DNA of 54,938 bases, from the NCBI GenBank assembly GCA_016930485.1, contig JAFGGP010000017.1, positions 1-54,938 on the forward strand, read 5' to 3'. Origin of the DNA: Candidatus Omnitrophota bacterium (GTDB taxonomy: Bacteria > Omnitrophota > Gorgyraeia > JAFGGP01). Positions within the stretch are counted from its first letter, which is position 1, and each line of letters opens with the position of its first letter. The notes beneath the pieces were generated by a model. The model did no database searches, had not been told where the DNA came from, and saw only the letters and a list, made by a program, of their open reading frames with translations. Both the position numbers and the translations under genes were made by a program. Below are positions 12,402-28,814 of the stretch, in pieces.

Positions 12402-12738
12402 GAGGGAAAAAGGTGGAAAATAAAAATTTTTTAACTTTTTTTAAAACATTTTTCTATGTAGAGGACTTTTTTTTAATTGATATGGGTTTTTTTGCTTTTT
12501 TTGGCTCTCCTTATCCTGTGTCCTAGGCTTTTATTATTTTTTCATAGGTTCTCTAAAACAATAGTATTTCTCTTTAGTTTTGCATAATCATGCTTAAGAA
12601 TGCTACCAATGAAATAAGGTGACAATGGGGGATTGAGAGGTGATGAAACAGGCGGAAAAGCAAACGCGCATTATATTTTATGCGATGAACTGTTAAACGT
12701 AACTATTTTTAAATAAACGTCTTATAAAAATGATACGG
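12402..12738. other. AT-rich intergenic stretch with no recognised gene
   Basis: Between the giant-gene promoter and the stop codon of the upstream RND gene lie about 340 AT-rich bases with many T and A runs. I see no coding potential, no clear terminator hairpin and no RNA gene. The only recognisable element is the tandem TGATACGGTT motif at its right edge. Confidence 0.6.
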
Positions 12739-12751
12739 TTATGATACGGTT
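12731..12751 (+). repeat. Tandem TGATACGGTT motif at the end of the export operon
   Basis: TGATACGGTT occurs at 12731-12740 and again at 12742-12751, an 11-base period. It overlaps the TAA stop codon of the second RND gene. The same tandem motif recurs at 24760 and 25316, at the start of the same operon. Confidence 0.7.
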
Positions 12752-15700
12752 TCTGCAGCCTGTTTCAGTCTTTTCCGAAAGAATAAGAACGCCACTATGT
12801 TACTGAGCAACCTTCCAAACTGTTCAAAGAGAAGATACATCCCCGGGATAATGAAAAGCGTGAGGCATGTTGAGCTAATAAGTCCCCCTATGACGGTGAT
12901 CGCCAACGGGGACCACAGAGATGATGACTCACTCTTGCCAATAGCCATAGGCACAAGTCCTAAAACCGTGGTTAGGGTAGTCATCATAATGGGCCTAAGC
13001 CTGTCCTGAGATCCTACTACTATTGCCCGATGTAGCCGATACCCCTTTCTCCTGAGGAGATTGATATGGTCAACCATGACGATGGCGTTATTTACTACAA
13101 TCCCGGCAAGCATAATAGAGCCGATCATAACCCCCTGGGTAATGGAGGTGTGGGTTTTTATAAGGGCTATGGTAACCCCGATGGCGGCAAGGGGTACAGT
13201 GAGCATAATGAGAAATGGTTGAACATACGACTCAAAAAGCGAGGCAAGCACCAAATACACCAAAAGGACGGTAATCACAAATACAAAGATAAGTTGCTTG
13301 TAGCGCTCGAGGTTCTTATAGTAATCACCGCCTATCCGGTAATAATAATCCTTCGGAAAAGGCAGGTCCTTCAAGACCTCCCGGATCTGTTCAACCGCAC
13401 CATGCAGAGAAATGCCTGCGCAGTTGGCGCTGATGTGGATAATCCTGTTCTTATTCTGGCGGATAATTTCGCCTGGTACCAGCGAGGGGACAAACTGGGC
13501 AATCTCCTCAAGATACACCTGCTCCCCTTCCGGGGTACCGAGGGTTAATTTTCGTATTTCATCGATCGTATCCCGATATTCCCCCTGGAGGCGCACCACC
13601 GTTTCAACCTCGGTACCCTCGGTATGATACCGGGTGGCCCTGAGTCCGCGCATCTGGGCATGTAAGGTTTCGGCGACCTCCTTGACGGTCACCCCATAGA
13701 GCGCCGCCCTATCCTTTACTATCTCCACGCCCCATTCAGGCCTACCCTGTATCCTGGACATACGGACATCCTGCAGGCCCTGGATAGTAGACAGCCGTTC
13801 GGAGATCGACCCTGCCAGTTCCTTGAGTATTTTGTAGTCGAACCCGTAGAGGTCCACAATAACCTCTTCCATGCCGGATTCCTTAATTTCTGAAAAATAG
13901 ATAAATCCCCCTTTGTACTTCTTCTCAACGGCGGCCGCCTTTGAGCGGATGTAGTCGATGAGTTCCTGGGTTTCGCGCTGCCTCTGGGCCCGGGGAATCA
14001 AATTAACGTATACCTTGGAAGAACCAGCTTCAACATGGGAAGAGAAATTTTTAATCTCGGGGATCTCTTCAAGAAACTGCTCGATCTCCTTGGCCATATG
14101 ATCCGAGATATCCAGCTTTGCCCCTGGATCAAGATCGACAAATATGGTGAATCTTCCCTCTCCGGAACTGGTGGTAAACTGCTTATCCACCTTATTGGTC
14201 AGAAAGTAGACGGACAGCAAAAAGGCGAGAACAATGTCAAATATGATCAGAAATTTATACCGCAATACAAAAATCAGGACTTTTTTGTATATCCAGGTTA
14301 TGTCAAGGAGGCGGAGCAGAAAGGTTAAAAAACGTCCCCGCACCTTTTTTATCTTTTCTTTTAGCGGCGGCAATATGCGCGAGGCTAGCATAGGAACAAG
14401 GCTCATTGCCACAAAGAGAGAGGAAACCAGCGAGTAGGTCACGGTCATGGCGAGTCCCATCCACAGAATTTGAATCTCTTTATTGACAAAGATAAAGGGC
14501 AAAAAGACGACTATCGTCGTTACGGTTGAGGCGACGACCGCAAGCATAACCTCTTCGGTTCCCTCGACAACCGCCTTTCTTGTCGAAAGGCCGTCTGACC
14601 TGAGCTTGAAGATATTTTCCAGCACGACGATCGAGTTATCCACAAGCATACCAATTCCCAGTGCCAACCCGCTCAGTGTCATAATATTAAGTGTGATCTC
14701 CTGTTTAAAGAGTGTCCGGGACAGATACATAAAAAAGAAGGTTGCCATAACCGAAATGGGGATGGTAGTGGCAATAATAAACGTTGAGGGGATCTCTCGC
14801 AGAAAAAGAAAGAGGATAATGACTGCCAGTAAAGCCCCCTGCAGCAGTGATTCCTGCACCGTGTGAATGGCGTCCTTAATGGAGGTTGACTGATTGAATA
14901 TTGTTTTGATTTTAACCCCTTCAGGAAGTTCTATATGCTTCAATTCATCCAGGATGCCCTCACAGACTCCTATTGTATTGGCGGTGCTTTCTTTGTAGAT
15001 ATAGAGCGACACAACCGGCTGGATATCCACACGGGCATAGCTCTCCGGCTCAAGAAACGAATCATCCACCCGTGCCAGCTCCTTCAATCGAATCACCGAA
15101 CCCTGCGGGGTAGTGGCAACGCCGATATTCCGTACATCCTCGAGTGACTCGAATACCCCGATGGTCCTGATGAGCAGTTTGTTTTTCGTCTGTTTGACCT
15201 CACCGGCTACAAGATTCATATTGCTTCTGCCCAGAACGCTGATCACGCGTTCGATCGGGATGTTGTAGGCCTGGAGCTTTTTTTGGTCAACCTCTACCAG
15301 AATCTTACGCTGCTGACCACCGAATACATCAACGTTTGCCACCCCTTCAACACGTAACAACCGTTCTTTTACATCGGCATCAACGATCTGGCGCAATACC
15401 TCCGGTGAGTGATAGGTACCAGTAGTAGCCAGGAGGATAACGGGATAGTCCGACTGTTTATACTGGGCGATAACCGGTTTTTCTATCTCTTTGGGCAGTT
15501 TTTCCTTTACCGTGGAAAACTTCTCTCTGACCTCCAGTGCGGCAAAATCCATATTGACCCCTGGCTCGAATTCCAGCACCACCCGGGACTCGCCTTTCTT
15601 GGAACTTGAGCTCAGATTATCGAGATGGGTAACCGTACTGACCGCCTCTTCGACCGGTCGGGTCACCAGGGCCTCTACCTCTTCCGGAGGCATGCCGCCC

Positions 15701-15855
15701 CTGACGTGAATGATAATACTTATTGTGCCGAGACTCACATTGGGCATGAGCTCCACCGGAAGGCGCAAGAGGGAATTTGTGCCCAAAATGATGACCGCGA
15801 GAAAAACCATCGTAATGGTAACCGGCTTTTTTACCGAAAAATCGGGAAGGGCCAT
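12739..15855 (-). CDS. RND-family efflux/export permease (HAE1-like), second of the operon
   Basis: This is a 1,038-residue inner-membrane RND permease of the AcrB/MdtBC (HAE1) type and of usual length. It opens with a TM1 segment (VTITMVFLAVIILG), followed by the porter motif MDFAALEVREK, the TM4 motif GLALGIGMLVDNSIVV and the TM10-11 region GIVVNNAIVMVDHIN. The TM4 position often DD in drug exporters is DN here, as in many HAE1 relatives. It is the last gene of the operon, 23 bases after the Asp-rich protein. No separate adaptor or channel gene accompanies it, so it probably shares the operon's adaptor and TolC protein, either alone or as a hetero-oligomer with the first RND protein. The substrate is unknown. 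Confidence 0.95.
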   Translation of the reverse strand: MALPDFSVKKPVTITMVFLAVIILGTNSLLRLPVELMPNVSLGTISIIIHVRGGMPPEEVEALVTRPVEEAVSTVTHLDNLSSSSKKGESRVVLEFEPGVNMDFAALEVREKFSTVKEKLPKEIEKPVIAQYKQSDYPVILLATTGTYHSPEVLRQIVDADVKERLLRVEGVANVDVFGGQQRKILVEVDQKKLQAYNIPIERVISVLGRSNMNLVAGEVKQTKNKLLIRTIGVFESLEDVRNIGVATTPQGSVIRLKELARVDDSFLEPESYARVDIQPVVSLYIYKESTANTIGVCEGILDELKHIELPEGVKIKTIFNQSTSIKDAIHTVQESLLQGALLAVIILFLFLREIPSTFIIATTIPISVMATFFFMYLSRTLFKQEITLNIMTLSGLALGIGMLVDNSIVVLENIFKLRSDGLSTRKAVVEGTEEVMLAVVASTVTTIVVFLPFIFVNKEIQILWMGLAMTVTYSLVSSLFVAMSLVPMLASRILPPLKEKIKKVRGRFLTFLLRLLDITWIYKKVLIFVLRYKFLIIFDIVLAFLLSVYFLTNKVDKQFTTSSGEGRFTIFVDLDPGAKLDISDHMAKEIEQFLEEIPEIKNFSSHVEAGSSKVYVNLIPRAQRQRETQELIDYIRSKAAAVEKKYKGGFIYFSEIKESGMEEVIVDLYGFDYKILKELAGSISERLSTIQGLQDVRMSRIQGRPEWGVEIVKDRAALYGVTVKEVAETLHAQMRGLRATRYHTEGTEVETVVRLQGEYRDTIDEIRKLTLGTPEGEQVYLEEIAQFVPSLVPGEIIRQNKNRIIHISANCAGISLHGAVEQIREVLKDLPFPKDYYYRIGGDYYKNLERYKQLIFVFVITVLLVYLVLASLFESYVQPFLIMLTVPLAAIGVTIALIKTHTSITQGVMIGSIMLAGIVVNNAIVMVDHINLLRRKGYRLHRAIVVGSQDRLRPIMMTTLTTVLGLVPMAIGKSESSSLWSPLAITVIGGLISSTCLTLFIIPGMYLLFEQFGRLLSNIVAFLFFRKRLKQAAETVS

Positions 15856-15878: not shown

Positions 15879-16421
15879 TCACTTCTCTATCGATACATCT
15901 TGCTGTATTGTATCTGGTGTATTAACTCTTCTATCAAACGCCCCGTCCAAATCCGTATCTTGCTCCAATGCCACCATCTGTCCCTGCTGATAAAAACACC
16001 TGAGATCAACATTGCCGTCATAGTTTTTGTCAAGCTCTTGGCGGACAAGGTTATTGTCCTTAAAATAGGCCCATACATCAGGGGTGCCGTCGCCGTTTTT
16101 ATCTGCTGACTGATATTTGGTTGTCCCGTCCGGATTATAGGAAACCCATATCTCTGGTGTGCCGTTGTTGTCACTATCAACCTCTACTTCATATAGCAGT
16201 CCTTTGCGAAATGTGCCCCAGACATCCTTTTTGCCGTCTTGGTTTCTATCAACCTCGAAGTGCTGAGGCATGCCGTCTTCACTATAAAAAATCTTCATAT
16301 CGGGTGTGCCGTCTTTATCCCGGTCTAGTTCCTGCGCAATCTCCGCGGCATAACCAAAAAAAGGCACGCAAAGGATAAACACGCCACAAAAAACGAAGAT
16401 AAACAATAGGTTATGTTTCAC
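15879..16421 (-). CDS. Small secreted protein with six DxDxDG-type repeats
   Basis: The 180-residue product has a hydrophobic signal peptide ending near FGYAAE. Six repeats of about 22-24 residues follow, each starting with an Asp-rich loop (DRDKDGTPD, DRNQDGKKD, DSDNNGTPE, DKNGDGTPD, DKNYDGNVD, DTDLDGAFD) and continuing with two short strands carrying an aromatic residue and a Glu. The loops resemble calcium-binding loops of EF-hand or thrombospondin type-3 repeats, so a periplasmic or extracellular calcium-binding role is plausible. It starts with GTG after AAAGGAG, three bases from the preceding stop, between two pump genes. It may be a pump accessory protein; there is no direct evidence for that. 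Confidence 0.85.
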   Translation of the reverse strand: MKHNLLFIFVFCGVFILCVPFFGYAAEIAQELDRDKDGTPDMKIFYSEDGMPQHFEVDRNQDGKKDVWGTFRKGLLYEVEVDSDNNGTPEIWVSYNPDGTTKYQSADKNGDGTPDVWAYFKDNNLVRQELDKNYDGNVDLRCFYQQGQMVALEQDTDLDGAFDRRVNTPDTIQQDVSIEK

Positions 16422-16424
16422 GAA

Positions 16425-17306
16425 TCATAACTCCTTTTTTTCAAATATGTTATGCTTTTTCCCTTTGGTCGGCGCAAGTTCCTCAGGCACTCTTTGATCC
16501 AGCCCTTCTATGCTCTTCTCATCCTCCTCTTTTTTATCCTGTCGAGGCTCTTGCTGTAACTCGCCCGCTTCTTCTCCGGCACTCTCTATTTCATACGCTT
16601 CTTTGAGTGATGTCTCGGTCTCCTTGAGCGCCTCTTCAAGTTTCTCCGGTTCTTGTTTGTCTACCTCTTTGACGTTCTCTTCTTCCGCATCTTGTTCAGT
16701 CCCCTCTTGCAACTCACCGGCCTCCTCGGCAGTCTCTATGTCATAGGCCTCTTTGAGTGATGTCTCGGTCTCCTTGAGCGCCTCTTCAGGAATAACACTG
16801 ATAAAATATATCTCAGAAATACCGGAGCCTGTGATTCCCGTAACAAGGGTTTCGCTATACACAACATTAACCGGATCACCTATGTTAAGTTTTGTTATAT
16901 CGGACGGTGCCCCTTGTATCAGAATCTGGCTCTTCTCAAGATTAAAAATCGCTGTTATCTCCTCCTTGAAAAGACCGCTGCGGACCGTAATCGCATATGT
17001 CCCGTCATCCTTATGCCGGATAGCAGTAACCTTCCCAATCATCTGAGACATAAGCACCGGGGCAGGAAGAATGGTCTGTGTCGGCATCATAGGTACCGAT
17101 CCCATCGTTGTGGGGATATTCGGGGTCGTACGAGGCTGCATATACTGCTGGGGTAACGGTGGAGATGAAGGCTGCCGTATCTCGGCCGGCGTCTGAGGTA
17201 CAACCACGGTTGACGGGGTCCGCTGTCTGTTGTCCTGCGCAATGCTTTCTCCAACAATGCCCGTTAATAGGTATACACATACACAAAAAATGAACATTTT
17301 TTTCAT
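16425..17306 (-). CDS. Secreted protein with an OB-like domain and duplicated Glu-rich tail
   Basis: I chose the ATG at 17306 because GGGAG lies six bases upstream. The 293-residue product has a signal peptide, a Pro/Gln/Thr-rich segment, then a beta-rich domain (about residues 85-170: GKVTAIRHKDDGTYAITV ... NIGDPVNVVYS) that resembles DUF5666/OB-fold proteins. The C-terminal third is a Glu-rich tail built from an internal duplication: EALKETETSLKEAY occurs twice, each followed by an EEAGELQ-like stretch. The tail would be an extended or coiled-coil acidic arm in the periplasm. The gene lies between the two RND genes. I infer an envelope accessory protein of the pump; its function is unknown. 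Confidence 0.85.
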   Translation of the reverse strand: MKKMFIFCVCVYLLTGIVGESIAQDNRQRTPSTVVVPQTPAEIRQPSSPPLPQQYMQPRTTPNIPTTMGSVPMMPTQTILPAPVLMSQMIGKVTAIRHKDDGTYAITVRSGLFKEEITAIFNLEKSQILIQGAPSDITKLNIGDPVNVVYSETLVTGITGSGISEIYFISVIPEEALKETETSLKEAYDIETAEEAGELQEGTEQDAEEENVKEVDKQEPEKLEEALKETETSLKEAYEIESAGEEAGELQQEPRQDKKEEDEKSIEGLDQRVPEELAPTKGKKHNIFEKKEL

Positions 17307-17385
17307 TTTCAACTCCCATGATTGGTTCGCGGGCTACTCGGATTCTACGAGTTCGCGAGTTATTTTTTTCGTCCGTTCTTCTAAT

Positions 17386-17415: not shown

Positions 17416-20400
17416 TTATTCTGCTAATTCATACCACCTGCCGGGACCAAGGGGCCCCTTCCCGTGCACCAGATTACGATCTACAAGGTCTTTAAGGTCC
17501 CGTGCAGCAGTAGGTACCGATACCTTAAATATCACTGAATACTGCTTTCTGGTAAGGCGTTTATACACCTTCAGGAATTCCAATGCCTTCTCCTGCCTCT
17601 CATTAAGCAGCCTCTCTTCAGACCCTGGAATAATAAAATCGGGGGGCGGTACCGGAAGCTGGCCGATATCAGGCTGCGGCGGCTCCAGTGCCTCAGTCTT
17701 CTCTTCCGCAGGCTGTTCCCCCACCGCTCCTTCTTCTCTCTGAATGCCCTCTTCCTGCTCCTTCTCAGATGACTGCGGCCCTTCTATTGGAGGCAGACGA
17801 TCTTCTTCCTCGGTGCGTTCCAGGTGCGGCTTTTCTTCAGGCTTCTCTTCTTCCGGTGACTCTGCCTGTCCTTCTTCAGGCTTTTTGTCTTCAAGCCTCT
17901 CTTCCTCCGGTGATTTTCTCCGTTCTTCTTCGGGTCCTTTTTCTTCCACCGGTTCTATCTCTCTTTCTTCCTGGAAGGACTCAAACGGTATCTCCTGCGA
18001 TGTCTCTTTCTCTTCTATCTCGCGAGAAACCTCGGTTGGCTCTGGCGAAAAAGCCCCCTTCTCTTCTTTCTCTGTGTCAGGTTCTTCTTGCACCTTTTCT
18101 TCTTTTTCTTCCCGCGGTCTCTTCTTCTTGCGTGCTATCGGATAGTCGAGTCGATCAAGCCAGGAGAGATCGGCAGGGCCCTTTCTTGTCGGTTCTGACG
18201 GGATATCCTCCTTCTGCTGAACCATTTCGTCTTGATGCGTCTCTTCCTGCCTCTCTATCGTGTCTTCTTTTTTTGTAACCCGCTGAAACCAGGGTCTTTC
18301 TCGCGGCAGCGACTCTTCTATATCATCATCTGAAGGGGAAAGAATATCCCGCATGCCCTTTAAAAAAAGCCCTATCATCTCGGAAAAGGACGAAAGCTGG
18401 CCGACGGCTGACAGCATCCCTCCCGGTGTCCCGGCCGGCTGAAATGCGAGGTCGCCTGCCCTAACGCCCATTCTCTCCCCCGCGCCTCCCCTGACATACT
18501 CAGCCGCGCACTCCCGGTCTTCTTTCTTGGAGGCAATGCCGAAGAAAATAACCGGAATGACTACGAGCGTCAAAAAGGTGGACACGATAAGACCGCCCAT
18601 AACCGTCAATGCCATTGGGGCCATAAGTCCGCCGCTTACTGCCATAGGAATCCATCCAAGCACTGTCGTCAGGGTAGTCATCAAAATAGGGCGTAACCGG
18701 CTCTGGGCTGCCTCCCGCACGGCATCAAAAAGCGTCTGTCCCTCAAGTCGCAGGAGATTAATGGTATCTATCAATACGATACCGTTATTGACCACGATTC
18801 CACCCAGAATAATAATTCCCAAAAGCACCACGGCGCTCATCGGGGTACCGGTCAATAGCAAAGTCCAGGCTATGCCTATCAGGGAAAGGGGTACGGTAAA
18901 CATAATAACAAAAGGTTGCCATAGACTTTCAAACAGTGACGCCATAATCATATAGACCAGCACGATCGCAAAGATCAGGGCAAAACGCAGGCTGCCGAAG
19001 GACTCCTCCATCTGTTGTCTCTCGCCCGTGAGGGAAACAACATAGTCTCCCTGCCGTTCTCCTGCGAGCCATTCCTCCTGAAAGGAGGCAAGGAATACAT
19101 CAACATCCTCCAGAATCTGGCTTAACGGCCGCTGCGTCACGTTGGCACTGATGAAGACAACGCGTTGCTGGTCAATTCTCTTGATCTCGCTGGGGCCTAC
19201 ATCCTTGGTAATGTACGCCACCTCCTTGAGTGGCACCTCAAGATCCAAGGGCGAATGCACCAATAACCCCCGCAACTGCACCAGATCCTTTCTGTCTCTT
19301 TCCTGAAGCCTGACCCGGATATCCGTTTCTTTTCCGCCCTCTTTAAACTTGCTTGCTATCGCCCCTTTCACCGCGATGTGCGTCGTGAGGGCAATCTCAT
19401 TGACCGCGAGCTGATAAAATGAGGCCTTATCCTTGATAACGTTAACCTTGATTTCCGGATGCGGAAGCGATAGGGAGGTCTTGACACCGTAGATCCCCTG
19501 AATCCTCAAAAGGCCCCGCTGGACCTCCTCTGCCCCGCGTTTCAGCTTATCAAGCTCTTTCCCCTTCAATTCAACAACGATCGGGCTGCCCCCCTGAAAG
19601 GCGGATGCGAATAAACTCTCCTGAGCAACATACTCTACCTCCGCCCCCTCAAGGGCCATCTTGTCGGTTTTGGCCTTGACCATCTGTATTAACTGATTGG
19701 TCGATATTGCCCTTTTTCCTTTCAGATTAACGATAATCTGGGCCTGATGCACACCGAGCGTTTCGATAACATCACCCGAGTCACGGCTCTTGGAAGAACC
19801 GATATTAACGGTGACGGACTCTACTGGATCGTACTCGCTTAAAAGCCGCTCGATTGCCTGAGAGACACGGTCTGTCACCTCAAGGCGGGTGCCGGTCGGC
19901 ATATTTACTTTTATAACAAACTGCCCTTCATCGACCTTCGGCATAAATTCCTTATTAATAACGGTGAACAACATCATGCTGACCACAAAGAGGATAGACA
20001 CTGACGACAGTATGAGAAAGCGCTTATTAAGGAGGCTGCCAATAACATCGGCATACATTTTTTCTATCTTGATGAAGGGGTGCGGTTTCTCTTCCTTTTT
20101 TTTCTGTGTCGCCTCTACTGCAATGGGAGCTCCGTCCTTCTGGCCGAGTGTCCGGGCCGCATCGCCTGCCACAAGACGCGGTATCAGGGAAAGGGCAACG
20201 AACACAGAGGCAGACAGGGAGAAAATAACGGTCCAGGCAAGCTCTTTAAATAACTGGCCCGCTACCCCGATAGAATACAGTATCATCGGTGCAAACACAC
20301 ATATTGTAGTAAGCGTGGACGCCCACACCGCGTTATTCATTTCGTTCGCTCCGTCGCGGGCGGCATCGACAATCCCTTTCCCTTCTTCCTGCAACCGGAA

Positions 20401-21702
20401 GATATTCTCCATGACCACAATGCTGTTATCAACCAGCATTCCTATGCCAAGCGCAAGCCCCATCAGGCTCATCATATTTATCGTGATACCGATAAAGTAC
20501 ATCAGGCTGAACGTAGCCAGAATCGAGATCGGTATCGAAGTGGCAACAATAAGCGAATTTTTTATGTCGCGGAGAAAAAAAAGCAGGACCAAAAATACAA
20601 GGACGCCTCCGATCAGAGCGGAATCCCTTACCTCATTGATTGATTTTTTGATGAACGCTGACTGGTCGTAGACAATGGCTATGTCCACATCCTGCGGAAG
20701 ATCTATCCTAAGCTGCTCGAGCCGTTTTTGAACAGCATTCGAAACGCTGATGGTATTGGCGCCGGCCTGCTTTAACACCGAAAGTGAGATATTTTCAATC
20801 CCGTTATAGCGTGATACACTCGTTTTTTCCCGGTATGTTTCTTTTACATCGCCGAGGTCGCCAAGGGCAATAAATCGTGAGGTGGTCTCAGACTCCTCTT
20901 TTTTGCCCCTAAGCATGCTTTTCCTTTCGTCCTCCGCCTCCCCGGTCTTCCGGCTCAGTTCTTCTACCCGAACCACCATTTTTTTCAGATCGCCCACTGT
21001 TTTAAACTCGCCCATCGTCCTGATGAGATATTCATAAAAACTCTCCTCAATGGTCCCGGCAGGATAATTTAAGTTTGACTTGCCGACTGCTTCATTAATC
21101 CGCGAAATCGGCACGTTATGTGCCTGAAGCCTGGCCTGATCGAGTTCGATCAGGATCTCGCGGTCGACGCCGCCGCTCAGACTTGCCGAGGCAACGCCCT
21201 CCACCTTCTCCAATTCATCCTTAATGCGCTTACGGACAAACTCTTTCAAATCCGCCGGGTGTCTCTCACCGGTAATACTTAACACCATGATCGGCAGCTC
21301 AAAGGGATTAAACTTCATCACGATGGGGTCGCTCGCCTCATTCGGCAGGCGCTCTTTTACCAGATCGATCTTTTCACGGACCGCAAGCGCGGCAAAATCC
21401 ATATTGGTGCCCCAGCCAAACTCGGCAACCACCAATGAGGTCCCCTCGCGTGACGTTGAACTTACCCGCTTCACCTTGCTGACGGTGCCGACACCTTCCT
21501 CGATAACCTTGGTAATGAGGGTTTCCACTTCTTCTGGGGCCGCGTTTTCGTAATTGGTGACGATGGAAAGTTGGGGATAGTTGAGGGCAGGAAATAATTC
21601 TTGAGGTAATTTACCGAGGGAAATAATACCCAGCAGCATTATCCCTATAAAAACCATGGTGATGGTAACAGGCCGCTGTACCGCTAGACTTGGCAAACTC
21701 AT
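17416..21702 (-). CDS. RND-family permease fused to an acidic cytoplasmic tail and winged-helix domain
   Basis: Residues 1 to about 1055 form a full HAE1-type RND permease (TM1 VTITMVFIGIMLLG; TM4 LALGIGMLVDNSIVVMEN; late TM GIVVNNGIVLIDTIN). The protein then continues for about 370 residues. A linker very rich in Glu, Lys and Pro (about 1060-1360) leads to a C-terminal domain (about 1365-1428) starting LLNERQEKALEFLK. That domain contains a helix-turn-helix-like TAARDLKDLVDRNLV and a wing-like end GPGRWYEL, resembling the winged helices at the end of Fic-family and related regulators. RND C-termini are cytoplasmic, so the domain could reach DNA. The frame is unbroken. A pump that also senses or regulates is inferred; ordinary RND proteins are about 1,030-1,050 residues. 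Confidence 0.93.
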   Translation of the reverse strand: MSLPSLAVQRPVTITMVFIGIMLLGIISLGKLPQELFPALNYPQLSIVTNYENAAPEEVETLITKVIEEGVGTVSKVKRVSSTSREGTSLVVAEFGWGTNMDFAALAVREKIDLVKERLPNEASDPIVMKFNPFELPIMVLSITGERHPADLKEFVRKRIKDELEKVEGVASASLSGGVDREILIELDQARLQAHNVPISRINEAVGKSNLNYPAGTIEESFYEYLIRTMGEFKTVGDLKKMVVRVEELSRKTGEAEDERKSMLRGKKEESETTSRFIALGDLGDVKETYREKTSVSRYNGIENISLSVLKQAGANTISVSNAVQKRLEQLRIDLPQDVDIAIVYDQSAFIKKSINEVRDSALIGGVLVFLVLLFFLRDIKNSLIVATSIPISILATFSLMYFIGITINMMSLMGLALGIGMLVDNSIVVMENIFRLQEEGKGIVDAARDGANEMNNAVWASTLTTICVFAPMILYSIGVAGQLFKELAWTVIFSLSASVFVALSLIPRLVAGDAARTLGQKDGAPIAVEATQKKKEEKPHPFIKIEKMYADVIGSLLNKRFLILSSVSILFVVSMMLFTVINKEFMPKVDEGQFVIKVNMPTGTRLEVTDRVSQAIERLLSEYDPVESVTVNIGSSKSRDSGDVIETLGVHQAQIIVNLKGKRAISTNQLIQMVKAKTDKMALEGAEVEYVAQESLFASAFQGGSPIVVELKGKELDKLKRGAEEVQRGLLRIQGIYGVKTSLSLPHPEIKVNVIKDKASFYQLAVNEIALTTHIAVKGAIASKFKEGGKETDIRVRLQERDRKDLVQLRGLLVHSPLDLEVPLKEVAYITKDVGPSEIKRIDQQRVVFISANVTQRPLSQILEDVDVFLASFQEEWLAGERQGDYVVSLTGERQQMEESFGSLRFALIFAIVLVYMIMASLFESLWQPFVIMFTVPLSLIGIAWTLLLTGTPMSAVVLLGIIILGGIVVNNGIVLIDTINLLRLEGQTLFDAVREAAQSRLRPILMTTLTTVLGWIPMAVSGGLMAPMALTVMGGLIVSTFLTLVVIPVIFFGIASKKEDRECAAEYVRGGAGERMGVRAGDLAFQPAGTPGGMLSAVGQLSSFSEMIGLFLKGMRDILSPSDDDIEESLPRERPWFQRVTKKEDTIERQEETHQDEMVQQKEDIPSEPTRKGPADLSWLDRLDYPIARKKKRPREEKEEKVQEEPDTEKEEKGAFSPEPTEVSREIEEKETSQEIPFESFQEEREIEPVEEKGPEEERRKSPEEERLEDKKPEEGQAESPEEEKPEEKPHLERTEEEDRLPPIEGPQSSEKEQEEGIQREEGAVGEQPAEEKTEALEPPQPDIGQLPVPPPDFIIPGSEERLLNERQEKALEFLKVYKRLTRKQYSVIFKVSVPTAARDLKDLVDRNLVHGKGPLGPGRWYELAE
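17419..17610 (-). other. C-terminal winged-helix domain of the RND fusion
   Basis: The last 64 residues of the fusion carry NERQEKALEFL (helix 1), LTRKQYSVIF (helix 2), SVPTAARDLKDLV (recognition-helix-like) and a Gly-rich wing before WYELAE. This follows the usual order of a winged helix that recognises DNA. The assignment is by pattern; the domain could instead be a protein-binding winged helix. Confidence 0.7.
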
Positions 21703-21774: not shown

Positions 21775-22989
21775 TTAAATATCACTTTCTTTGATCTCGG
21801 TAATCTCAACCTCGCGTCCGTCTTTGAGTGTCTCGTGGGTCTCCACAACAACAAGCTCGCCTTCCTCTAACCCTGACTCAATCTGCGCGTAATCGGTGGT
21901 TACGTAACCGATCTGTATCTGCCGCTGTTTTGCCACCTTCTCGTCCTCCACAACAAAAACGCTGTATCCTTCCTCGGTCTTTTCGAGTGCCATGCTCGGC
22001 ATAACCAGTGCGTCTTCCATCTCGAAGATACGCACCATACACCTGGCAAACATGCCGGGAAGCAGTTGATTATCGGGATTTTCTATTTTTACCTTGACCG
22101 TCAGCGTCCTGGTTTTTCCTTCCAGGGCAGGGGTAATATTATCAACAAGGCCGGTAAATTTCTTTCCTGGATAGGCATCAACCTCAACCTCAACCTCCTG
22201 ATCAAAGGCGATCTTCTCGATATCCTTCTCGATCACCCCCAGCACGGCGTAGACCTCAAATATCTCGGTCAACTCAACGGTATCATTCTGAGGTGTGACA
22301 AACTCCCCGGGCTCAATTTTTTTAGAGGTGATAACACCAGCGGATGGGGCATGCAGTTTTGTCTTGGTAAGGTCGGATTCGGCGCTCTCCAGTTCTACCT
22401 GGGTAGCAGCAAGCTGTTTTTCGGCAACCTGGGCCTCTATCTCTACCTCCTTCACCTTGGCCTCGACGATCGCCCCCATTTCGTACAGTTGTCTGTGTAT
22501 CGCCAGCTTCTGCAGGGCCCCCTGATGAGATACCTCTGCGGATGCAACCTTGGAAGCAGCGTATTTGACTTTCAGCCGAGCATCCTTATCATCCAGCTCT
22601 CCGACAAGATCCCCTTTACTTACCAAATCGCCCTCTCGCACATAGAGCTGCGTCAAGACGCCGGAGATCTCGAACTTCAGCGGAATGGTAGATATGCCTT
22701 CGATAGTGCCCATAACAGGCAGATTATCCTCGAAATAGGTCCTTGCCACCCGGAATACCTTAACCGGTGCCGGCTTCTCTTCCTGCTGGGCCTCTTCTTC
22801 CTCTACCATGGTCTCTTGTTTTGTCCCGGTCCGTAACAGCGCGCTGATCTTGGCGCCGCCCGGCAGCTGTTCCAAAGGAATCTTATCTAAAATAGCCTCT
22901 CTCCCTACATAGATGATTACCATCGCGATAAAAAGTAAAAGTGAAATACTGAATATTCTCTTTCCAAATCTTGACCAACGGATCTTCAT
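21775..22989 (-). CDS. Periplasmic adaptor subunit (membrane fusion protein) of the RND system
   Basis: I chose the ATG at 22989 because GGAGAG lies six bases before it and the upstream extension lacks signal-like character. The 404-residue product has one N-terminal membrane anchor (ISLLLFIAMVIIYVG), a split lipoyl/barrel-sandwich region (LKFEISGVLTQLYVREGDLV ... LHAPSAGVITSKKIEPGEFV), a long alpha-hairpin between the halves, then beta-barrel and membrane-proximal domains (LLPGMFARCMV ... GLEEGELVVVE). It would join the inner-membrane RND trimer to the TolC-like channel encoded upstream. It is the only adaptor in the operon although two pumps are present. Spacing to the RND gene is 72 bases. 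Confidence 0.95.
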   Translation of the reverse strand: MKIRWSRFGKRIFSISLLLFIAMVIIYVGREAILDKIPLEQLPGGAKISALLRTGTKQETMVEEEEAQQEEKPAPVKVFRVARTYFEDNLPVMGTIEGISTIPLKFEISGVLTQLYVREGDLVSKGDLVGELDDKDARLKVKYAASKVASAEVSHQGALQKLAIHRQLYEMGAIVEAKVKEVEIEAQVAEKQLAATQVELESAESDLTKTKLHAPSAGVITSKKIEPGEFVTPQNDTVELTEIFEVYAVLGVIEKDIEKIAFDQEVEVEVDAYPGKKFTGLVDNITPALEGKTRTLTVKVKIENPDNQLLPGMFARCMVRIFEMEDALVMPSMALEKTEEGYSVFVVEDEKVAKQRQIQIGYVTTDYAQIESGLEEGELVVVETHETLKDGREVEITEIKESDI

Positions 22990-23105
22990 GGTGTCTCTCC
23001 AGAAAAAGTCTCGTTGTAGATAACAATTTCCCGCCCTCGAAACCGCACCGATGGACTCGCGCAGGGGGGGCAATGGAGTCGTTGAGCCCTGTCAACGCCC
23101 CTTAT

Positions 23106-25226
23106 CTATTTTTCGCCTCTGTCAAAGTACCCGGTAATACCTACCACCTTGTTCAGTTCCGAAATCGCCGTATGGTGATCTGCCAACGCCTGATAATAAC
23201 TTGCGTTATTGTCCGCAAGCTCCAGCTCTGCCTTGAGGAGTTCGGTAATGGCGACTTCGTTTAGCTCCGTCATTGCCTGGTTTACCTTGACCTGTTCTTT
23301 GCTTAGCTCCAGCTTATTTTTTTCGTCCTTTAACGTCAGGAGCGATTTCTTGTATTTAAAGTAACTGTCCTTTACCTCGAAGTTAATGGTGAGTTCGGTC
23401 TTGTTGAGCTGCTCGAGCGCCTTATCATATTCAATAACAGCCGCTTTTTTATCGCTGTCGATCTTCATTGCCTCCGGGTCATACAGAGACATCTCGAGCG
23501 TATTCGTCTGGAATACGGTGCTGTCGGTCTGCCCTGCCTGAGGCACCCTGTCCTGGGCAAGCATCGAGTCTTTAAATGTGTGCTTTGACCATGGATACTT
23601 TACCTCAAGCCCCACAAACCACTCTTCGGTAAACTCCTTGGGTTCGGTTTCATAGGCCTCTGCACCCCAGCCGGCAAGACCGCTGAGACTGACCTGAGGC
23701 CTGCCGCGGGACTTGGCTATCCGTATCCCGTATGCGTTAAACTTAAGTAACAGTTCATTAATAGCAAGATCCGGCCTGTTGTTCCGGGCAAGCTCAAGGC
23801 ACTCATCTACCGTTTTACCGATCTCTATCTCATCCTCTACGGGCGTTGGATCGATAGCGATAAGTGCTTCATCACCCTTAATATTCAAATTATTCTGCAG
23901 GGTAAGCTGGGCCAGGGTAAGCTCGTTCTTGTTCTGTTCGCGCTTAAACTCAAGCTGATTCACCATTGACTGGGTTGTAAGCAATTCGAGCCTCCTGCTC
24001 AGGCCTGCCTCATACCGCTTCTCCACAATCTCCGAGATTCGGGCAGATTCATCAACCAACTCCTCATAAAGGTCCTCTTTTTTCACGCTGCCCGCCAGTG
24101 TATAGAAGGCCTTCTCCACCTCAAAGGTAAGGTCTTGTTTAATCTTTTCATACTTGGCCGCCGCCACTTCTACATTGACAACAGACTGCCGGTAGGAGTT
24201 CCTGATTTCGCCGCCCCTGTATAGAGGCTGTTGAAATTCGAACATATAACGCGTACCAAGAGAATCGACCATCCCCCCGCTCACCTCGCTTACCGATTCC
24301 TGCCACTTTAGGGTAGCCGTGGGGTACTTTGCGCGCTTTGCCTGATCTACCTTTAGCTGGGCCAATTCAACCTCTTTAAGGGCGATGCGGCATGGAGCAT
24401 GGTTTTCAAGACCTATGGTAATACACTCTTCGAGGGTAAGCGTCCGGCCGGCAAGATCCTCGGTTGTCTGAGGAATCTGGGCCCTCTTCACTGCGGATGG
24501 CCTGTTCGCATGAGAAGGCATGTATGGAGCCTTGGGAGGCTCAGGCGGTCTGGTGTGTTGTCTATAGGCTTCCGGGGGGCGTTTTGGGCTGACCATTCCC
24601 TGGGGTGCCTGAGGTAAACGATATGACGGGAGCTCACTCGCCATAGATTTCCTGGGGTAGGCCTCTGGGGTTTGTTTTTGCTGGGGAAGGGGACCGCTTT
24701 GACAGGTGTTTCCTGATGATGTACTTCTATAACTATCTGAAATTGAACAGGTTAAATTTTGATACGGTTTATGATACGGTTCATTCTTTGCTAGTTTCTT
24801 GGTTAATTGCGAAGATGCGGTAACATCGACTACTATCTGGTAAGTTGAGGAATTGACTGTGTACTGGGGATTGCCGTCAAAGATTACTGTTAACTGGTCT
24901 ATCTTGCTGCCGGCAGACGGAATGCCATTGGCGTAGAACGAAGGAATAACCTCTTTGACTCCTGCGATGTTAACCGGGATAGCACGTCTGTCAAGGTCAG
25001 TATAGATATTATCCCCGATAAGATCTATTACCAGGCGTTGAGGGTTTTCAAGTTTGAAATCAATAAACTCTAACGGGTGGCTCGATGGAATGATTAATTG
25101 AACCCCACTGTCTACCCTCTTGACGTGAACTCCGTATATCCTGACCACCCCTTCTCCATAAGCAGGATAAAAATAGGTAGTTACAAGAAAAAAACAGGTT
25201 GTTAAAATGCTATAAAGTCTTCTCAT
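23106..25226 (-). CDS. TolC-like outer-membrane channel with N-terminal AMIN domain
   Basis: The 706-residue product starts with a signal peptide, then an AMIN domain (about residues 25-140: VDSGVQLIIPSSHPLEF ... LENPQRLVIDLIGD ... YQIVVDV). A Pro/Ser/Gln-rich linker (about 150-260) follows, then two outer-membrane efflux protein repeats (LTLEECITIGLENH; IGKTVDECLELARNNRPDLA) with long coiled coils typical of TolC. AMIN domains bind peptidoglycan or localise envelope proteins, so the fusion may anchor the channel to the cell wall. TolC proteins are usually 420-500 residues; the extra length is the AMIN part and linker. First gene of the export operon, with a good promoter upstream. Confidence 0.93.
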   Translation of the reverse strand: MRRLYSILTTCFFLVTTYFYPAYGEGVVRIYGVHVKRVDSGVQLIIPSSHPLEFIDFKLENPQRLVIDLIGDNIYTDLDRRAIPVNIAGVKEVIPSFYANGIPSAGSKIDQLTVIFDGNPQYTVNSSTYQIVVDVTASSQLTKKLAKNEPYHKPYQNLTCSISDSYRSTSSGNTCQSGPLPQQKQTPEAYPRKSMASELPSYRLPQAPQGMVSPKRPPEAYRQHTRPPEPPKAPYMPSHANRPSAVKRAQIPQTTEDLAGRTLTLEECITIGLENHAPCRIALKEVELAQLKVDQAKRAKYPTATLKWQESVSEVSGGMVDSLGTRYMFEFQQPLYRGGEIRNSYRQSVVNVEVAAAKYEKIKQDLTFEVEKAFYTLAGSVKKEDLYEELVDESARISEIVEKRYEAGLSRRLELLTTQSMVNQLEFKREQNKNELTLAQLTLQNNLNIKGDEALIAIDPTPVEDEIEIGKTVDECLELARNNRPDLAINELLLKFNAYGIRIAKSRGRPQVSLSGLAGWGAEAYETEPKEFTEEWFVGLEVKYPWSKHTFKDSMLAQDRVPQAGQTDSTVFQTNTLEMSLYDPEAMKIDSDKKAAVIEYDKALEQLNKTELTINFEVKDSYFKYKKSLLTLKDEKNKLELSKEQVKVNQAMTELNEVAITELLKAELELADNNASYYQALADHHTAISELNKVVGITGYFDRGEK
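24760..24782 (+). repeat. Tandem TGATACGGTT motif inside the TolC-like gene
   Basis: TGATACGGTT occurs at 24760 and again at 24772 (12-base period) inside the linker-encoding part of the first operon gene. It matches the tandem motifs at 12731 and 25316. Its presence in a low-constraint coding linker suggests either a real binding site or a spreading short repeat. Confidence 0.6.
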
Positions 25227-25268: not shown

Positions 25269-25297
25269 AGTGTATCACAAATATAGATTGACGTCAA
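25269..25297 (-). promoter_or_regulatory. Promoter of the TolC/adaptor/RND operon
   Basis: On the minus strand TTGACG (25292-25297), a 17-base spacer and TACACT (25269-25274) form a good sigma-70-type promoter. It would start transcription about 35-40 bases before the ATG of the TolC-like gene. A tandem TGATACGGTTT motif lies about 20 bases upstream of the -35 box. Confidence 0.75.
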
Positions 25298-25315: not shown

Positions 25316-25336
25316 TGATACGGTTTCTGATACGCT
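25316..25336 (+). promoter_or_regulatory. Tandem TGATACGGTTT-like motif upstream of the export operon promoter (candidate operator)
   Basis: TGATACGGTTTC (25316-25327) is followed directly by TGATACGCTTTT (25328-25339), so the 8-base core repeats with a 12-base period, close to one helical turn. It lies just upstream of the operon's -35 box, an activator-like position. The same tandem motif is found at two other places of this operon. A cognate regulator is not known; the winged helix of the RND fusion is one candidate. Confidence 0.5.
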
Positions 25337-25406
25337 TTTTTGATAAAAAAATTGATTATTTATCAATATGGCATCTCTTTTAACTATACTGTGTTCCTAG
25401 AGAGAG

Positions 25407-25440
25407 AAAAAAAGGGCGCCTTTTTTACCTAAAGGCGCCC
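25407..25440 (-). terminator. Intrinsic terminator of the small membrane protein gene
   Basis: On the minus strand a perfect 10-base-pair stem GGGCGCCTTT / AAAGGCGCCC with a 7-base loop (25414-25440) is followed by seven T residues (25407-25413). It lies 35 bases after the stop codon of the 85-residue gene and separates it from the export operon promoter. Confidence 0.93.
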
Positions 25441-25474
25441 CTACCTTCTGTTGGTAAAACCTATAAAAAACGCT

Positions 25475-25732
25475 CTAGAGAGAGCTGATGCCTTTTCCCT
25501 TCTCAGCCAGGCTTAAGATAACCGTAATCAGACAAGAAATAGTCATAAGCCACAAAAACTGAAACAGGCCGATGATTACCCAGCCAATGGCTGCTATTCT
25601 CGGCACATCCGGTGTACCTCCGGTAATTAGGATGGCAATCGGAACAATAATGCCGACTACCGCACCGACAACCCATGCTAAGACCTTAAAAATCTTGGCG
25701 GCCAGCGCTAAAAATTTAACGTTCTTTTCCAT
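25475..25732 (-). CDS. Small two-helix membrane protein of unknown function
   Basis: The 85-residue product has two predicted membrane segments: VLAWVVGAVVGIIVPIAIL, and a second from about residue 46 to 74. The loop between them contains GGTPDVPR, and the short tails are charged. A strong ribosome site GGAGGGAGGGAC precedes the ATG and an intrinsic terminator follows, so it is a real single-gene unit. I do not recognise the family; short two-helix proteins of this kind are often annotated as hypothetical. It lies just downstream of tRNA-Glu, on the same strand. Confidence 0.8.
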   Translation of the reverse strand: MEKNVKFLALAAKIFKVLAWVVGAVVGIIVPIAILITGGTPDVPRIAAIGWVIIGLFQFLWLMTISCLITVILSLAEKGKGISSL

Positions 25733-26037: not shown

Positions 26038-27255
26038 ATGGGCTTACAAATAGGTATTGGTTCAGGAAAAGGGCAGTCGCCTTTTAATATCGGCAGGCAA
26101 GCAGCGCGTGAGGCAATTAGTGCTATGCGGCGTCCCTTGCCGCATCAGGGAATCGCATTTACCTTTGCTTCCTCCCGATACGCCCCTGAGGATCTTCTGC
26201 GAGGGATTAAAACTGTATTAGGGGCGGTACCGGTTATCGGCGCAACTACCGCGGGAGAATTGAGCCCAAAAGGGGTTGATTCTGATACATGCATCGTCAT
26301 GTGCCTGTTTAGCGATAACTTAAATATTAGCATTGGATTGGGAGAAGAATGCGGGCGTAACAGCAGGGCAGCAGGACATCATTGTGCCCATGCAGCCAAT
26401 AAGGCGCTTCTTGAGCAAATTAAGAAATACTCGGTCTCTGGCAGAGAAAGACTCTGTTTTATCGCCTTATTCGACGGGCTGCGCGGGAATGGTTCAAATA
26501 TTATACGGGGTATTCAGGAGGCCCTCGGAACAAGCTTTCCTATCGTTGGTGGTGCAGCGGCCGATGATTTTTACTTTAATGAGACAAAACAGTTCTACGA
26601 CAGTGCGGTATATACCGATTCAGTAGCAGGGGTCCTTTTTGGCGGGGAGCTGTCAATCGGTATTGGGGCCCGGCACGGGTGGCGTCCACTTGGCAAGACA
26701 ATGACCGTAAGTCAGTCTATGGACAATATTGTGATGGAAATCGACGGCAGACCAGCCGCCAAAATTTACGAGCATTACTTTGAAAACGAAGTCCGTCTTA
26801 TCGGGAAAGAGCCTCTTACGAAGCTTGCTATTTTATATCCGGTTGGCATGTCAATACCGGGGGAGGAGGAATTTCTGATAAGGCACCCGATGAATATTAA
26901 ACAAAATGGGGCAATGGTCTTTGCAGGAGAGGTGCCAGAAGGAAGCGCTGTCAGACTGATGATGGGTTCCCGTGAATCAGCCCTTGAATCAGCAAAATTA
27001 GCGGCCTTAGAAGCAAAAAATAACCTGGCAGGAGCAGAGCCGCGGTTTCTTATCGTCTTTGATTCGGCTTCCCGACGAAGACTTTTGGGCAGAGAAGCAC
27101 CCAAGGAAATAGAGGCTATTCGTTCTGTATTTAACGACATCCCTTTTGTTGGTTTCTGCACCTATGGCGAGTTTGCGCCGTTAAAATCAGAGCTCCATGC
27201 GGGCACTTCCTATTTCCATAATGAGAGCATAGTCATCCTGGCAGTCGGATCGTAA
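26038..27255 (+). CDS. FIST-domain sensory protein (FIST_N and FIST_C)
   Basis: The 405-residue soluble protein matches the FIST family. The N-terminal part (AFTFASSRY ... VPVIGATTAGELSPKG ... FPIVGGAAADD) and the C-terminal part (FLIVFDSASRRRLLG ... IPFVGFCTYGEFAP) carry the typical Gly-rich (P)-x-V-G-x-x-x-x-G-E motifs. FIST domains are ligand-sensing modules, proposed to bind small molecules, usually coupled to kinases or chemoreceptors. No membrane segment is visible. It is first in an operon with a histidine kinase and a GGDEF response regulator, so it probably supplies the sensory input. The ribosome site is weak, consistent with the very short leader. Confidence 0.93.
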   Translation: MGLQIGIGSGKGQSPFNIGRQAAREAISAMRRPLPHQGIAFTFASSRYAPEDLLRGIKTVLGAVPVIGATTAGELSPKGVDSDTCIVMCLFSDNLNISIGLGEECGRNSRAAGHHCAHAANKALLEQIKKYSVSGRERLCFIALFDGLRGNGSNIIRGIQEALGTSFPIVGGAAADDFYFNETKQFYDSAVYTDSVAGVLFGGELSIGIGARHGWRPLGKTMTVSQSMDNIVMEIDGRPAAKIYEHYFENEVRLIGKEPLTKLAILYPVGMSIPGEEEFLIRHPMNIKQNGAMVFAGEVPEGSAVRLMMGSRESALESAKLAALEAKNNLAGAEPRFLIVFDSASRRRLLGREAPKEIEAIRSVFNDIPFVGFCTYGEFAPLKSELHAGTSYFHNESIVILAVGS

Positions 27256-27268
27256 CGAAAGGGGCGGT

Positions 27269-28798
27269 ATGGGCAATATATCAAAGTTGTTGCTGGTATT
27301 GGGGCTCTCGGTTCTGGCCGGACTCTTTTTTACTAACAGCGCCTATGCAAAAATGATATATACTGTCCTGTTATTTATTATTATTGTAGCTCTGGCGGTA
27401 ATCGCCATAAAAGAGCAGGGGCGACGCCAAAACATCACACATGCCCTTAAAGAAGCAGAAAAAGCCTATGAGAAATTGGACGAACAGGCAAAAATGATCC
27501 TTCAAACTGACTTAAAATTGAATATGGCTCAGGAAGAGCTTGATAAACGCATAGAGGGGTTATACGGACTGCATGAATTGGGCAAAATTATCGGTAAGGT
27601 CTTTAATTTAAAGGAATTGCTAGAGCTGGTAGATGAGGAGCTGGTTTTTAGCCTTGGGTTTGACAAAAGCATCGTATTACTTTTGGATCCGGAACAGACA
27701 AAGATACGCTTCAGTTCAGCAGCGGGATACACCTCTGAAGAAATCCGCCATATAAAAGAAACGCTCTCTTCGGCACAAGCCATCGAGATGCTCAAAAATG
27801 AGCAACAGGTACAGGCGCTGTCACAGGATAAACCGTTCCTGAATGGATTGCTTAAGCTGAGGTCGGCCGTTATTGTACCGCTATCCATCAAAGAGCGGTG
27901 TTCTGGTCTTATCCTTATGGGCAGCGAGAAAAAAGGGGTTATCCAAAAAGAGGATAACGAATTGATTCAAATACTGGCTCAGCAGCTGTCGGCATCCATA
28001 GAAAACATCTACCTCTACGAAGAACTCTGGAATTCGCAAAGGGAACTCGAATTAAAGGTTCAGGAGCGCACAAAAGAGCTGCAACAGGCCTATGAAGATC
28101 TTAAAAAACTCGATGAGAAGAAAAAAGAATTTGTCTCTGCGGTTTCCCATGAGCTGCGAACACCCCTTACCTCAATCAAAGGGTACGCCAGTATTTTAAC
28201 AAGTGGCAAACTCGGTGATGTCACCGAAGAGCAAAAAGAGCGGCTGCAAAAAATTAACATACACTCCAATAAGCTGGTAAGCCTCGTCAACAATCTCCTT
28301 GACATATCGAGGATCGAATCAGGCAAGGTGGAGATGAATATTAAACCGGTTTTAGTAAAAACGCTTCTTGATGAAATTGCCGATATGATTGCCCCCCAGG
28401 TAAAAGAAAAAATGATAGAATTAAAGGTAGAAATCCCGTCGTCGATCGAAGAGGTCGGCGCGGACAAAGAACAGCTGTCTCGTGTATTTATTAATCTCTT
28501 GTCGAATGCGGTCAAATTCACGCCCGATAAAGGACATATTAAGATAACTGCCTCAAAAAAAGAGGGTTATCTACAGTTTGATATCGCCGATTCGGGAATT
28601 GGCATCTCTCGACAAGATCAAGAAAAGCTCTTTACTGAATTTTTCAGAACCCAGGATGCGATCGACAAGGGTATTAAGGGGACAGGGCTGGGCCTGTCCC
28701 TGGTAAAACGCATCGTGGAGGCACACAAAGGAACTATATGGGTAACCAGTGAAGTAGGCAAGGGCGCTGTATTTCATTTTACCTTACCCGCATACTAG
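27269..28798 (+). CDS. Membrane histidine kinase with GAF domain
   Basis: The 509-residue protein has two N-terminal membrane segments (about 5-22 and 30-47), a coiled coil, a GAF domain (about 100-250: LGKIIGKVFNLKELLELV ... SAVIVPLSIKERCSGLILMG), a second coiled coil, then HisKA and HATPase domains. The H box is FVSAVSHELRTPLTSIKG, the N box FINLLSNAVKFTP, and the G boxes are DSGIGIS and GTGLGLSLVK; all are intact. It starts 13 bases after the FIST gene with AAAGGGGCGGT before the ATG. It should phosphorylate the REC-GGDEF protein encoded next. The ligand of the GAF domain cannot be read from the sequence. Confidence 0.96.
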   Translation: MGNISKLLLVLGLSVLAGLFFTNSAYAKMIYTVLLFIIIVALAVIAIKEQGRRQNITHALKEAEKAYEKLDEQAKMILQTDLKLNMAQEELDKRIEGLYGLHELGKIIGKVFNLKELLELVDEELVFSLGFDKSIVLLLDPEQTKIRFSSAAGYTSEEIRHIKETLSSAQAIEMLKNEQQVQALSQDKPFLNGLLKLRSAVIVPLSIKERCSGLILMGSEKKGVIQKEDNELIQILAQQLSASIENIYLYEELWNSQRELELKVQERTKELQQAYEDLKKLDEKKKEFVSAVSHELRTPLTSIKGYASILTSGKLGDVTEEQKERLQKINIHSNKLVSLVNNLLDISRIESGKVEMNIKPVLVKTLLDEIADMIAPQVKEKMIELKVEIPSSIEEVGADKEQLSRVFINLLSNAVKFTPDKGHIKITASKKEGYLQFDIADSGIGISRQDQEKLFTEFFRTQDAIDKGIKGTGLGLSLVKRIVEAHKGTIWVTSEVGKGAVFHFTLPAY

Positions 28799-28814
28799 GG
28801 CCAGGAGGAGTTAG

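Follow-up and report, generated by a model that had tools for sequence, protein, structure and literature searches.

Among the HAE1-family RND permeases, the MdtBC/MuxBC heteromeric pumps are encoded in an operon with an OMF (outer-membrane factor), an MFP (membrane fusion protein) and two RND genes, and MdtBC of E. coli is a B2C1 heterotrimer (PMC7015380); the typical permease ends shortly after the last transmembrane helix. In transmembrane transcription regulators, such as ToxR, CadC and BcrR (surveyed in PMC10269533), a DNA-binding domain and transmembrane helices are contained in one polypeptide that acts from the membrane, and a term search of the text of that survey found no transporter fusion. 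FtsK carries a C-terminal winged helix (WH), the gamma domain, on a long linker after a membrane domain. Here we describe a gene of the uncultured bacterial phylum Omnitrophota that encodes a complete HAE1-type RND permease continued by a long linker and a predicted C-terminal WH, together with a probable operator whose occurrence tracks an intact WH. No RND permease with a DNA-binding tail was found in the papers searched, which did not cover the subscription literature.

Results

The gene lies in a 54,938-nucleotide stretch of DNA (contig JAFGGP010000017.1, assembly GCA_016930485.1), the whole of which is hereafter called the window. It occupies positions 17416–21702 on the minus strand, stop codon included, and encodes 1428 residues, whereas the plus strand of the same interval is full of stops. 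The initial annotation, which had proposed an RND permease fused to a winged-helix domain, is confirmed. The permease domain (18541–21702, minus strand; residues 1–1054) matches Pfam ACR_tran over residues 5–1054 with an E value of 7.5e-227, and its closest solved relative is MdtB (9lyq; phmmer E value, 1.2e-93). It is followed by an E/K/P-rich linker of ~310 residues (17608–18540, minus strand; residues 1055–1365), which is cytoplasmic by inference from RND topology and, in a short-linker relative, is modelled as disordered, and then by the WH (17419–17607, minus strand; residues 1366–1428).

The AlphaFold model of the tail shows three helices followed by a wing, with a pLDDT of 93–94 in the core, and the Foldseek matches are mostly winged helices, with a probability of 1.00 and TM-scores up to 0.72. 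The tail of the window protein alone scores below the Pfam cut-offs (15.7 bits against 21 for HTH_DeoR), although 25 of the 29 members of the alignment match HTH_DeoR, the best with an E value of 2.3e-10; we therefore regard the domain as a WH by fold and not as a member of the DeoR family. The best profile relatives, and the probable source of the domain, are the C-terminal WH of Fic proteins (PDB 8cil; E value, 5.6e-6) and AlbA/RecG-like regulators, which are soluble enzymes or regulators, whereas the RND group carries its own conserved PTAARDLK and GPGRWYEL motifs. FtsK gamma also appears among the structural and profile matches, although the present protein has no FtsK motor, a different membrane domain and a different DNA motif. 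The predicted recognition helix (17479–17517, minus strand; residues 1396–1408; consensus PTAARDLKxL) corresponds to helix 47–59 of the model and includes the invariant A50 and R52 of the alignment. The WH is basic (+5 in the window).

The operon, also encoded on the minus strand, has the order OMF-MFP-RND1-RND2. Its first gene (23106–25226) encodes an OMF with an AMIN domain (Pfam OEP, 4.6e-44; AMIN, 1.9e-6), followed by an MFP of the HlyD/CusB type (21775–23073; HlyD_D23, 9.8e-32), the fusion gene (RND1), and RND2 (12739–15855), a second permease without a tail that is 39% identical to RND1. Beyond RND2 lies a gene for a giant exported protein with YD-like repeats (1–12075, minus strand), which is at least 4025 residues long and runs off the window.

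Of 384 Omnitrophota genomes, 58 hold the WH, nearly all as the C-terminus of the orthologous RND1 in an OMF-MFP-RND1-RND2 operon. The linkers vary from 50 to 530 residues, but the WH is conserved under purifying selection: in one genus (g18), pN/pS is 0.12 for the WH, 0.10 for the RND domain and 0.53 for the linker. Some relatives lack the tail, but they form one clade plus one RND1-RND2 fusion (genome G044), which looks like loss; the presence pattern on the RND1 tree requires 3 changes against a mean of 12 after shuffling. The tail appears to be a separate gene in three genomes, of which two (G016 and G086) are contig breaks within the linker, whereas the third (G252) is a real case, carrying the WH on a separate protein in the same operon with a predicted transmembrane and coiled-coil anchor of ambiguous topology. 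Absence of the tail and its occurrence as a separate gene had both been named in the initial annotation as observations that would count against the fusion.

A probable operator consists of 11-bp direct repeats, ATGATACGGTT x2 (reverse strand AACCGTATCAT). In the window, a tandem site AAGCGTATCAGAAACCGTATCA (25316–25337, minus strand) lies at the operon promoter, between a terminator-like hairpin just upstream (25412–25442, minus strand) and, just downstream, a sigma-70-like promoter (25269–25297, minus strand) that was identified only by consensus match as TTGACG-17-TACACT with TG before the –10. A second tandem site (24760–24781, minus strand) is located inside the OMF gene, and a third (12731–12751, minus strand) overlaps the RND2 stop codon, upstream of the giant ORF. 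Repeats also lie upstream of mnmG-parAB. In the genome of the window, 9 of 19 exact half-sites and 2 of 4 pattern-defined pairs are in this contig. Single half-sites AACCGTATCA within the giant ORF (2716, 4756, 5410 and 5467) were set aside because they read D-T-V in the coding frame and are not tandem. The tandem motif differs from the canonical parS, and TGTTYCACGTGRAACA-type parS is found separately in several genomes.

The occurrence of the motif tracks the state of the WH. Upstream of the operon, 19 of 20 intact-WH operons have a site, against 0.09 expected by shuffling, compared with 0 of 11 operons with no WH or a degenerate one. Genome-wide, strict tandem sites occur in 28 of 49 genomes with an intact WH, in 0 of 9 with a degenerate WH and in 4 of 326 without the WH (Fisher p, 8e-25), two of these four having no assembled RND1 end. 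The correlation is, however, not corrected for phylogeny, and the tail has undergone only about three or four independent changes of state; moreover, 21 intact-WH genomes lack a strict tandem site, and one genome (G110) has a pair together with a tail-less RND1. The family f16, whose WH has lost recognition-helix and wing residues, has no tandem sites, whereas in six genomes of the family f18 the same three loci carry pairs, that is, the operon, the giant-protein gene and parA.

Discussion

The results described above make it most likely, with moderate confidence on computational evidence alone, that RND1 is at once a subunit of a two-permease (MdtBC-like) tripartite efflux pump and a membrane-tethered DNA-binding protein. 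In the predicted arrangement, a long disordered cytoplasmic leash after the last transmembrane helix carries the winged-helix head, which would bind the 11-bp direct repeats with one repeat per head; the pump trimer would supply two or more heads, and the leash would tolerate spacings of 9–12 bp. The presumed bound sites are the promoter of the pump operon itself, the gene region of a giant exported protein, and the yidC/jag-mnmG-parAB region near dnaA. The likely result is control of these genes according to pump abundance or state, plus contact of these loci with the envelope, although direct binding, the sign of regulation and any link to transport are inferred. The position of the site relative to the promoter differs between families (upstream of or abutting the –35 in f18 and the window, downstream of it in the family f22), leaving the sign of regulation unclear, and some sites lie inside coding sequence (yidC and the OMF gene). 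In contrast to ToxR, CadC and BcrR, the membrane part is here a complete transport protein and the DNA-binding domain is at the far C-terminus. The pump-regulator fusion suggested in the initial annotation is supported, and its proposal that the protein could adjust its own operon gains independent support from the motif, whereas its suggestion that the tail senses transport state remains a hypothesis.

A variant of this explanation, overlapping with it and in our view doubtful as the main function, is that the WH-bound sites are mainly anchoring sites that fasten the origin-proximal region and the envelope-protein genes to the membrane, with little transcriptional regulation. A conserved site lies in the yidC-jag-mnmG-parAB region near dnaA in seven families (f1, f18, f3, f6, f19, f22 and f32), not at one fixed promoter, and in one genome (G076) seven sites lie within about 250 bp in the 5′ part of yidC; the combination of WH, long linker and membrane anchor also resembles FtsK with its gamma domain. 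However, other sites sit at promoters (the operon, and a small membrane protein plus the giant gene), the number of sites per genome is small, and canonical parS is found separately in several genomes.

It is less likely that another transcription factor reads the repeats while the WH tail does something unrelated. The most plausible candidate is the ROK-family repressor, because ROK genes with an N-terminal WH lie next to the operon in families f18, f6 and f22, and the genome of the window has a related ROK about 5 kb from another tandem site. Nevertheless, ROK relatives are found in all 59 genomes searched, including f16 and tail-less genomes without tandem sites, and one genome (G039) has tandem sites and the tail but only a weak, glucokinase-length ROK match. 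In addition, the motif is a direct repeat, whereas ROK repressors would usually be expected to bind palindromes as dimers. The response regulator next to FIST is REC-GGDEF, without an OmpR-type WH.

It is also unlikely that the WH is a protein–protein module, for example one binding a cytoplasmic partner, that does not bind DNA. Some winged helices do bind proteins, and the f16 family keeps the domain after losing the DNA-binding-type residues, so that it may have another role there; on the other hand, the basic charge, the conserved recognition helix, the relationship to the WH domains of Fic and AlbA/RecG-like regulators, and the motif correlation speak against this view. Finally, a sequencing or assembly artefact, or readthrough into a neighbouring gene, which the long low-complexity linker and the contig breaks within it might have suggested, is refuted by the same fusion in about 50 separately assembled genomes and by the purifying selection on the tail.

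A further possibility, which we regard as tentative, is that a drug-type export pump that is itself a sequence-specific DNA-binding protein physically links the envelope to its own promoter, to the gene of a giant surface protein and to the origin region of the chromosome, so that transport state, surface-protein expression and chromosome position are coupled in one polypeptide. Transporters usually report their state through separate regulators, whereas here the permease appears to be the regulator, with a predicted operator, a predicted regulon and natural loss-of-function relatives (f16 and the tail-less clade), so that the idea is directly testable with a small soluble domain and a 22-bp DNA. 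The finding also gives a first lead on how the giant surface proteins of Omnitrophota, implicated in adhesion or predation (PMC10066038), may be controlled, and points to a possible membrane contact near the replication origin.

Domain organization of the RND1 protein
The ORF at 17416–21702 lies on the minus strand and encodes 1428 aa. Pfam ACR_tran covers residues 5–1054 (E 7.5e-227), and the closest solved relative is MdtB. Residues ~1055–1365 are an E/K/P-rich linker and residues 1366–1426 a winged helix (WH). Although the window tail alone is below the Pfam cut-offs, 25 of the 29 aligned tails match HTH_DeoR. AlphaFold prediction with the 29-row alignment gives three helices and a two-strand wing, with pLDDT 93–94 in the core, and Foldseek finds ArsR/CadC, MarR, Fic (8cil), FtsK gamma, and other winged helices with probability 1.00. 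A full-length model of a short-linker relative (1148 aa, from the genome G076) shows the RND domain, a linker with pLDDT near 30, and a folded WH, but with modest overall confidence (mean pLDDT 70, pTM 0.56).

Organization of the pump operon
On the minus strand, the operon comprises the outer-membrane factor (OMF) with an AMIN domain, the membrane fusion protein (MFP), RND1-WH, two small ORFs, and RND2, followed by the start of a giant exported YD-like repeat ORF (1–12075, minus strand) of at least 4025 aa, which has an N-terminal signal-type segment and runs off the window. The two small ORFs between RND1 and RND2 (15879–17312, minus strand) have apparent signal sequences (295 aa with E/K-rich repeats; 180 aa with DxDxDG-type repeats) and are not seen in most relatives. 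The order OMF-MFP-RND1-RND2 is usual in relatives, whereas some families have RND1-RND2-MFP instead. Two different permeases with one MFP recall MdtABC, whose trimer is B2C1 (PMC7015380), and in the genome G044 RND1 and RND2 form one reading frame (locus L094 on contig C75, 2864–8998; open frame 2073 aa), which supports a mixed RND1/RND2 pump.

Distribution and conservation of the tail
All 43 loci found among about 85,000 species genomes are Candidatus Omnitrophota, although the scan uses exact patterns, so that distant relatives elsewhere could be missed, and records of the window's own genome may be left out. In a phylum sample of 384 genomes, 58 have a WH match of at least 70 bits, nearly all at the end of RND1 ORFs of 1135–1659 aa or cut by contig ends. 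Weaker matches belong to Fic and AlbA/RecG-like proteins, the likely source family; the best PDB profile match is the Fic C-terminal WH (E 5.6e-6). Linkers run from 50 to 530 residues without sequence conservation, whereas the WH keeps ITRKEY-F-S-PTAARDLK-L-GPxGPGRWYEL. In the genus g18, pN/pS is 0.10 for RND, 0.53 for the linker, and 0.12 for the WH. On the RND1 tree, the distribution of the tail needs three changes against 12 for shuffled labels, and one clade of 11 tail-less proteins looks like a loss, although the sampling favors genomes with the tail.

An informative exception is the genome G252, in which RND1 lacks the WH, but the same operon encodes, just after RND2, a separate 410-aa protein (locus L097, 6637–7869, minus strand) with a predicted N-terminal transmembrane segment, a coiled coil, and a C-terminal WH 54% identical to that of the window. 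The topology of this protein is ambiguous from sequence, but it suggests that the WH belongs on a membrane anchor.

A direct-repeat DNA motif and its positions
Alignment of the upstream regions of the operon across families revealed AACCGTATCA, often as direct repeats with an 11-bp period. In the window, 21 sites with up to one mismatch are found against 2.7 expected; the tandem ones are at 25316/25328, between a terminator-like element and a TTGACG-17-TACACT sigma-70-like promoter, at 24760/24772, inside the OMF gene, and at 12731/12742, at the RND2 stop codon, 656 bp before the start of the giant ORF. In the whole genome (1.92 Mb), there are 19 exact half-sites, 9 of them in this contig, and other pairs lie on the contigs C42 and C43, the latter upstream of mnmG-parA-parB. 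The tandem site upstream of mnmG in this genome (locus L209, 3737–3789) lies about 25 bp from a parS-like palindrome, TTTTACACGTGAAAAA.

Among operons with OMF first and a full upstream region, 19 of 20 with an intact WH have a site, against 0 of 11 others, with 0.09 expected by shuffling. Across the same 384 genomes, a strict tandem pattern is found in 28 of 49 with an intact WH, in 0 of 9 with the degenerate WH of the family f16, and in 4 of 326 without a WH (p 8e-25, without correction for phylogeny). Of these four exceptions, G332 has no assembled RND1 and the RND1 of G308 is cut by a contig end before the tail, and both carry the site at the parA locus. The f16 family (loci L082–L085 and L165–L168) keeps the WH but with an altered recognition helix and a lost wing motif, and lacks the DNA motif; its operons share a different conserved block, AGCAAARGGAATTGC, at the start of the first gene.

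In six genomes of the family f18 (G017, G049, G095, G214, G245, and G246), pairs occur at the same three loci, that is, the RND operon, a small membrane protein plus a large exported YD-like repeat protein (1000 aa and more, of the same family as the giant ORF) beside FIST-histidine kinase genes, and the jag/yidC-parA junction near dnaA; FIST, kinase, and response-regulator genes lie near the giant-protein gene in f18 genomes. In the window, the genes for a FIST protein, a GAF histidine kinase, and a REC-GGDEF regulator (26038–29777, plus strand), diverging from the operon, an 85-aa predicted membrane protein without a Pfam match (25475–25732, minus strand), similar to the small gene that precedes the giant gene in f18 genomes, the pump operon, and the giant ORF all lie side by side. 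In the family f22, several sites lie inside the 5′ part of yidC, which fits anchoring better than ordinary promoter control. In G076, seven half-sites occur in about 250 bp inside the 5′ part of yidC (locus L241, 4070–4331), several read as D-T-V codons, which looks like DNA-level selection within a coding region.

Discussion
Transmembrane transcription regulators (PMC10269533) and two-permease RND pumps are both known, whereas no RND permease with a DNA-binding domain was found in the open papers searched; what differs here is that a permease subunit itself carries a predicted DNA-binding tail. The correlation between the tail and the repeats cannot prove binding, and the tail has few independent gains or losses. 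A separate factor could read the repeats. The adjacent ROK repressor is the best candidate for such a factor, but ROK relatives occur in every genome searched, with or without the motif, and the genome G039 has both motif and tail without a close ROK. The motif is not parS.

We favor a mechanism in which a pump subunit binds neighboring repeats head to tail through its leashed WH heads. A trimer with two or more RND1 copies would offer two or more heads, and flexible leashes would explain the tolerated spacing (9, 10, 11, and 12 bp). The position of the sites relative to the promoter differs between families, and we therefore do not commit to either repression or activation; sensing of the transport state is a possibility without direct evidence. 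Giant ORFs of Omnitrophota, one of which follows a tandem site in the window, have been proposed as adhesins or predation factors (PMC10066038). As for the pump itself, binding next to the promoter, as inferred in this mechanism, suggests control of the operon by the amount or state of the pump.
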